Notes under the pieces: model-generated
What the model saw: the letters and a program-made list of their open reading frames with translations, nothing else
Database searches by the model: none
What the model was told of the DNA's origin: nothing
Shown here: positions 23,977-24,486 of the stretch, piece by piece
Numbering within the stretch: position 1 is the first letter of the stretch
Layout of the letters: every line of letters begins with the position of its first letter
Position numbers and translations under genes: made by a program
NCBI GenBank assembly: GCA_015065265.1
Contig: SVQQ01000004.1
Span: forward strand, 1-64,000
Direction of reading: 5' to 3'
Source of the DNA: Oscillospiraceae bacterium
GTDB lineage: Bacteria; Bacillota; Clostridia; Oscillospirales; SIG627
Length of the DNA stretch: 64,000 bases

Positions 23977-24234
23977 CTATTTGTTTTCAAGTAGCTCATC
24001 GCAGCTTATATTAAAAATTTTAGATAGGGCCAATAATTCAATGTCAGTCACAAACCGCTTACCGCACTCAATACGCTGAATAGCATTTTTATCTACATCA
24101 ATTCCATTAACTTGAAGTTTCTCGGCTAAAATGCGTTGAGACATCTTAGGCGACATACTTTTTCTCAACGTGTAAACATTTTTGCCACAGATATTATTTT
24201 TTCCATTTTCAACTTTATTTTTAAACATATTCAT
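23977..24234 (-). CDS. XRE-family HTH transcriptional regulator
   Basis: NVYTLRKSMSPKMSQRILAEKLQVNGIDVDKNAIQRIECGKRFVTDIELLALSKIFNISCDELL. Confidence 0.85.
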   Translation of the reverse strand: MNMFKNKVENGKNNICGKNVYTLRKSMSPKMSQRILAEKLQVNGIDVDKNAIQRIECGKRFVTDIELLALSKIFNISCDELLENK

Positions 24235-24242
24235 CACCACTT

Positions 24243-24265
24243 TTTTGACATTTAGTGCTTGACAA
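24243..24265. promoter_or_regulatory. Imperfect dyad overlapping -35, putative XRE operator 1
   Basis: TTTGACATTTAGTGCTTGACAAA (TTTGnCA...TGnCAAA). Confidence 0.45.
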
Positions 24266-24287
24266 ATATATTATACCATGTTATAAT
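24259..24287 (+). promoter_or_regulatory. SigA consensus promoter of 26-aa peptide gene
   Basis: TTGACA-N17-TATAAT, exact consensus in both boxes. Confidence 0.85.
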
Positions 24288-24295
24288 TTAAAAAA

Positions 24296-24314
24296 TGACA
24301 TTCACTGAATGTCA
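24296..24314. promoter_or_regulatory. Perfect 9-1-9 palindrome at the expected transcription start, putative XRE operator 2
   Basis: TGACATTCA-C-TGAATGTCA. Confidence 0.6.
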
Positions 24315-24331
24315 AAAAAGGAGGTGAGTTT

Positions 24332-24412
24332 ATGACTTGGGGTGCAGTTATTTGGGGAGCAATTGCTTTAGGTAATGCAATCGGTTGGCCTCTCGCATTT
24401 TGGATTTGCTAA
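24332..24412 (+). CDS. 26-aa hydrophobic Trp-rich peptide MTWGAVIWGAIALGNAIGWPLAFWIC
   Basis: Not in the ORF track (too short). Preceded by consensus SD aaggaggtga and SigA promoter, followed by dedicated terminator. Confidence 0.65.
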   Translation: MTWGAVIWGAIALGNAIGWPLAFWIC

Positions 24413-24431
24413 TTTTGTAAATCCATAAAAT

Positions 24432-24486
24432 AAAACCAGACACATCACAAGGAGTGTACTCCAAATGATATGTCTGGTTTTTATTT
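24432..24486 (+). terminator. Terminator of the 26-aa peptide gene, with nested hairpin
   Basis: aaaaccagacacatca ... ggagtgtactcc ... tgatatgtctggtttt then ttattt. Confidence 0.75.

Follow-up and report, generated by a model that had tools for sequence, protein, structure and literature searches.

A two-operator XRE repressor unit of Clostridia and a 26-residue tryptophan-rich peptide gene as its probable cargo

Introduction

The Cro/C1-type (XRE) repressors, including the P22 c2 N-terminal domain, SinR, ImmR and the phage immunity repressors, have a helix-turn-helix (HTH) fold and work with a divergent promoter and paired palindromic operators. The same fold and arrangement were found at a locus within the window analysed here, a stretch of 64,000 nucleotides from an Oscillospiraceae bacterium, although its XRE protein has no C-terminal sensor or oligomerisation domain and shares only 20–30% identity with these repressors. 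It differs from them further in occupying one dedicated locus per genome, in being combined with interchangeable cargo and in being rare in viral contigs.

The controller (C) proteins of restriction-modification systems, such as C.AhdI and C.BclI, are likewise HTH proteins of about 80 aa with a similar fold, and their paired palindromes set transcription of both their own gene and its partner. C genes drive a co-directional nuclease, whereas the XRE gene described here has a divergent partner that encodes no restriction enzyme; no restriction or methylase gene is adjacent, the neighbours being a 26-aa ORF and a 335-aa gene. Type II toxin-antitoxin systems with an XRE antitoxin (HigA, HipB and Y4mF-type) also place a small XRE gene beside a small gene. 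At the present locus the gene order is divergent instead, and the cargos of related loci are mostly not toxin-like and sometimes absent. The XRE protein reached only 15.1 bits against the Y4mF-type antitoxin model (cutoff 71.65), and the peptide falls in no known toxin family. Prophage morons and integron gene cassettes offer another parallel, as self-contained expression units with exchangeable accessory genes, but here the constant part consists of the repressor and its operators, the unit is mostly chromosomal, and neither an integrase nor an attachment site was recognised for it.

A search of open-licence PMC papers found no published description of this switch, which, given that restricted coverage, is weak evidence of novelty. 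From comparison with related loci, the locus is quite probably one copy of a portable repressor switch, with the 26-aa peptide gene as its current cargo, since a block of operator, promoter and operator is conserved while the gene behind it is swapped or lost.

Results and Discussion

The XRE gene encodes 83 aa (MFKNK...ENK) and occupies positions 23977 to 24228 of the minus strand, stop codon included. An earlier note on this DNA had placed a small XRE gene divergent from the peptide gene, and the open reading frame that it described (24240–23977, minus strand) is indeed present. The GTG start at 24240 is less likely to be used, however, because the ATG at 24228 is the start kept in relatives, the MFKNK beginning being retained across a 39-sequence alignment. 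More than 500 relatives were found, and many Clostridia and one Treponema have relatives that are 51–80% identical; the N-terminal stretch reads MFKNK...NNICG, and the recognition region DKNAIQRIExGxRFVTDIE is nearly invariant among them. The match to PF01381 (HTH_3) lies just below the cutoff (E 8.9e-5; 22.9 bits against 23). The AlphaFold2 model (pLDDT 93) has five helices forming a bare Cro/C1-type HTH, with P22 c2, C.AhdI, BldD, ImmR and SinR as the best PDB folds and a TM-score of 0.83–0.86 to P22 c2, normalised to the target. This fold, together with conserved palindromic operators at the controlled promoter, agrees with membership of the XRE/HTH_3 family. A cysteine directly before helix 1, Cys14 (approximately 24189–24187, minus strand), is kept in 108 of 113 relatives, and may serve as a thiol- or metal-based sensor.

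Two copies of one palindrome flank the cargo promoter, a feature overlooked in the earlier note. O1, the imperfect palindrome TGACATTTAGTGCTTGACA, lies at 24246–24264, its right end forming the −35 element of the cargo promoter. O2 is a perfect 19-bp palindrome, TGACATTCACTGAATGTCA, at 24296–24314, with half-sites arranged as TGACATTCA-C-TGAATGTCA; it lies over the predicted transcription start of the cargo, and in the mRNA it also folds as a 5'-terminal hairpin. A search of the 1.65-Mb genome for the O2 palindrome, with up to three mismatches tolerated, found this single copy. Between the operators, the cargo promoter TTGACA-N17-TATAAT (24259–24287, plus strand) matches the consensus at 12 of 12 positions, with −35 beginning at 24259, TATAAT ending at 24287 and a TG preceding the −10. 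Its 17-nt spacing is shared by 92 of the 101 relatives with both hexamers. A putative extended −10 of the XRE gene, TGGTATAAT (24270–24278, minus strand), was read off the opposite strand and overlaps the cargo promoter.

The peptide gene itself extends from 24332 to 24412 on the plus strand, encodes MTWGAVIWGAIALGNAIGWPLAFWIC, and begins 17 nt from O2 (the median among the cargos of relatives is 21 nt). It is preceded by the Shine-Dalgarno sequence AAGGAGGTGA (24318–24327, plus strand), a 10 of 10 match and the best in the 64-kb window, exceeding those of ribosomal-protein genes. The reading frame, consensus promoter and near-ideal Shine-Dalgarno sequence reported in the earlier note were thus all confirmed. 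When this stretch was shuffled with dinucleotide composition preserved, an ORF of at least 26 aa with a Shine-Dalgarno score of at least 8 arose in 0.015% of shuffles, compared with 48% when the Shine-Dalgarno criterion was dropped. It is very unlikely that the functional product is a structured RNA instead of the peptide: the 197-nt transcript does fold better than shuffles (z −5.3), but the O2 operator hairpin and the terminator can supply much of the folding energy, an Rfam search gave no family at gathering score, the corresponding slot in relatives is occupied by protein genes, and a 10 of 10 Shine-Dalgarno sequence makes sense only for translation.

The repressor and operators are conserved together in Clostridia. 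The XRE repressor was recognised at E ≤ 1e-22 in 38 of 391 class-wide genomes, about 10% of those sampled. O2 was found beside 122 distinct XRE loci, 115 of which also carry O1; the end of O1 is TTGWCA in 107 of these 115 copies, and a −10 follows at 17–18 nt in 101. The distance between O1 and O2 is 49–53 bp in nearly all cases and tracks the type of −35. Where O1 ends in TTGACA the spacing is mostly 49–51 bp, and where it ends in TTGTCA mostly 52–53 bp; the two forms are subtypes of one design. The earlier note had proposed that a repressor restrains an otherwise high output, and this proposal is well supported by the anatomy of the locus and by the conservation of the operator block in more than 120 XRE loci.

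A strict O2 pattern was found in 34 of 394 order genomes and at most once in each, while the reversed pattern used as a control was found once, and the XRE gene adjoins 28 of the 29 O2 sites that were fetched. That strict O2 never occurs twice in a genome and has an XRE gene next door points to a switch dedicated to a single locus, not to a regulon. A wider regulon was considered and rejected, with one operator in the source genome and never more than one among the 394 order genomes.

Three further observations concern the distribution of the switch. At locus L145 the O2 palindrome (1501–1519) was found with no XRE gene recognised within the fetched 3 kb; this site is perhaps a decayed copy or a chance occurrence. 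A switch whose cargo is a small transmembrane protein is present in a spirochaete, Treponema socranskii, which suggests transfer between phyla. An origin from a prophage or plasmid is unsupported, viral contigs having yielded five relatives by protein and one by operator pair.

The genes that follow O2 are diverse. In 96 of the 122 loci, an ORF preceded by a Shine-Dalgarno sequence begins no more than 60 nt from O2, compared with approximately 28% of control windows. The 103 called cargos fall into 68 families, 50 of them singletons; calling was automatic, so that a few calls are expected to be wrong. They include TM2, DUF6809 and DUF4190 proteins, zinc-ribbon proteins with a transmembrane segment, BspA-type LRR proteins, DUF4352 lipoproteins, lectin, AbrB-like, XRE and response-regulator proteins and one TIR protein. 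Among cargos of at least 70 aa, 68% have a transmembrane or secretion-type segment, against 32% of neighbouring ORFs (p = 3e-8). Tiny lone transmembrane-peptide cargos are found elsewhere, at L081 (37–40 aa, with a terminator directly after) and L089 (45 aa); few of the cargos seen are as small as the 26-aa peptide gene. One relative's cargo, in cargo alignment A2, matches Pfam Thiol_cytolysin.

This range of cargos bears on whether the peptide is a toxin that harms the membrane and is silenced by the XRE protein as a transcriptional antitoxin, in the manner of an addiction or abortive-infection system. A short, uncharged, tryptophan-rich and hydrophobic product would suit such a role, as would the tight repression predicted from the operators and the TIR-domain cargo of one relative. 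Most cargos in the slot, however, do not resemble toxins (TM2, AbrB, response regulators, DUF4352 lipoproteins), and relatives drop the cargo while retaining the repressor. PADLOC gave only scattered, weak matches with no common theme (TIR-type in one cargo, and HTH or control-protein types) and none for the peptide. Since the repressor outlives its cargo, and non-toxins predominate in the slot, toxin-antitoxin function does not serve as a general explanation of the family, and it is an unlikely one for this locus.

Comparison of related pairs of loci demonstrated that cargo is both replaced and lost next to a constant repressor block. Between L073/L079 and L067/L084, the repressor block is 93–94% identical and the first 54 nt past O2, including the start of a signal peptide, are also shared, beyond which the cargo bodies are unrelated. 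Between L102/L190 and L195 the block is 96% identical and the 3' flank of the XRE gene is kept, with unrelated sequence past O2. L056 and L062 differ by approximately 360 nt directly past O2. On the XRE tree, 73 cargo changes were counted among 95 labelled rows, a number that is merely indicative because the tree, built on 83 columns, is poorly resolved. Seven loci (L044, L052, L056, L062, L102, L103 and L195) have an intact repressor and operators with no convincing cargo.

Compared with L196, L190 seems to have lost its cargo by deletion, and a stub of three codons, ATG AAT TAT TAA, with a surviving start codon, is what remains. By analogy, the 26-aa ORF could be what is left of a once larger cargo after deletion of its main part, and the gap of only about 20 nt between its stop codon and the terminator stem would fit that history. 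The peptide frame, however, is uninterrupted and uncharged throughout, and has no Lys/Arg start, unlike the signal peptides of other cargos. Its promoter and Shine-Dalgarno sequence are undecayed, whereas in L195 the cargo start codon has been lost. A remnant is therefore regarded as improbable, and the peptide gene is best read as the cargo of the switch.

The peptide has four tryptophan residues and no charge. None of the 26-residue stretches of long frames in the window has four tryptophans, and only 0.4% of such stretches in its long open frames are free of charged residues or histidine. The KD maximum of 1.53 is slightly below the transmembrane threshold applied, because tryptophan ranks low on the KD scale. 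The likeliest reading of its composition is that it is probably a small membrane protein. Protein-family searches found no family match, and no homologue was found in approximately 785 order and class genomes (394 + 391), phages or plasmids. A protein search of 22 family genomes and a degenerate-pattern search of viral contigs gave no convincing relative either; across all of these searches the best non-self matches (E 0.02–0.1) lie inside larger frames at which the operator is absent. The roles proposed in the earlier note, namely a membrane-active peptide, a toxin, a signal or a bacteriocin, therefore gain no support from family or homology searches, so that its interpretation is supported only in part. 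The earlier note had proposed conservation of the peptide frame in relatives that keep the XRE gene as a check on its reality. Such conservation was not found, but the check does not discriminate, since these relatives carry other genes in the slot.

A secreted bacteriocin or a signalling peptide would likewise be small, Gly/Trp-rich and hydrophobic. It is nevertheless highly improbable here, given a two-gene unit with no leader, processing, immunity or transporter gene, as would be expected for a class II or leaderless bacteriocin, and no match to a bacteriocin family. The regulator, at 83 aa and HTH only, has no C-terminal TPR peptide-binding domain of the Rgg/PlcR type.

Downstream of the peptide gene, a terminator hairpin lies at 24432–24485 on the plus strand. 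The unit neighbours a 335-aa gene, which we take to be of the GGGtGRT type, and everything past this gene differs between the source locus and the congeners L151–L153. L151 and L153, in which the cassette is absent, carry a hairpin with the same stem (AGACACATC...GATGTGTCT) 3' of the same gene (L151:2629–2656 and L153:866–905). The strong terminator noted earlier behind the peptide gene is present, but its description as the gene's own is in doubt: with a stem common to congeners that have no cassette, it may be a property of the locus rather than of the cassette.

Conclusions

The arrangement of the locus suggests how the switch would work. The stand-alone 83-aa XRE protein would bind O1 and O2, presumably as dimers. 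Occupancy of O1 would hide the predicted XRE transcript start along with the cargo −35 element; occupancy of O2 would hide the start of the cargo transcript and lie near the −35 region of the repressor's own promoter. As the two promoters overlap, the bound repressor should both keep the cargo silent and regulate its own synthesis. We infer that some signal lifts repression, upon which the consensus promoter and the strong Shine-Dalgarno sequence would give a burst of cargo expression, with the O2 hairpin possibly stabilising the mRNA. The cargo released at this locus would be the uncharged 26-aa peptide, most likely inserted in the membrane.

The occurrence of the same unit in about a tenth of sampled genomes, with a different gene almost each time, gives it the look of a reusable on/off socket. 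The chances seem evenly balanced that it serves as an expression socket of Clostridia, a fixed two-operator repressor unit behind which accessory genes as small as 26 aa, chiefly for membrane or secreted products, would be gained, lost and swapped in place. Breakpoints would lie directly past O2 or inside the first codons, which would put an incoming gene immediately under strong but repressed expression. If so, the repressor and operator would mark one dedicated accessory-gene slot in about a tenth of sampled Clostridia; the genes in it probably go unexpressed under standard culture conditions. Genomes can be scanned for the operator itself, and such scans would uncover uncharacterised proteins, most of them membrane-bound or secreted and some of them tiny and missed by annotation. 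The unit might also supply research on gut Clostridia with a promoter that is both strong and under tight control.
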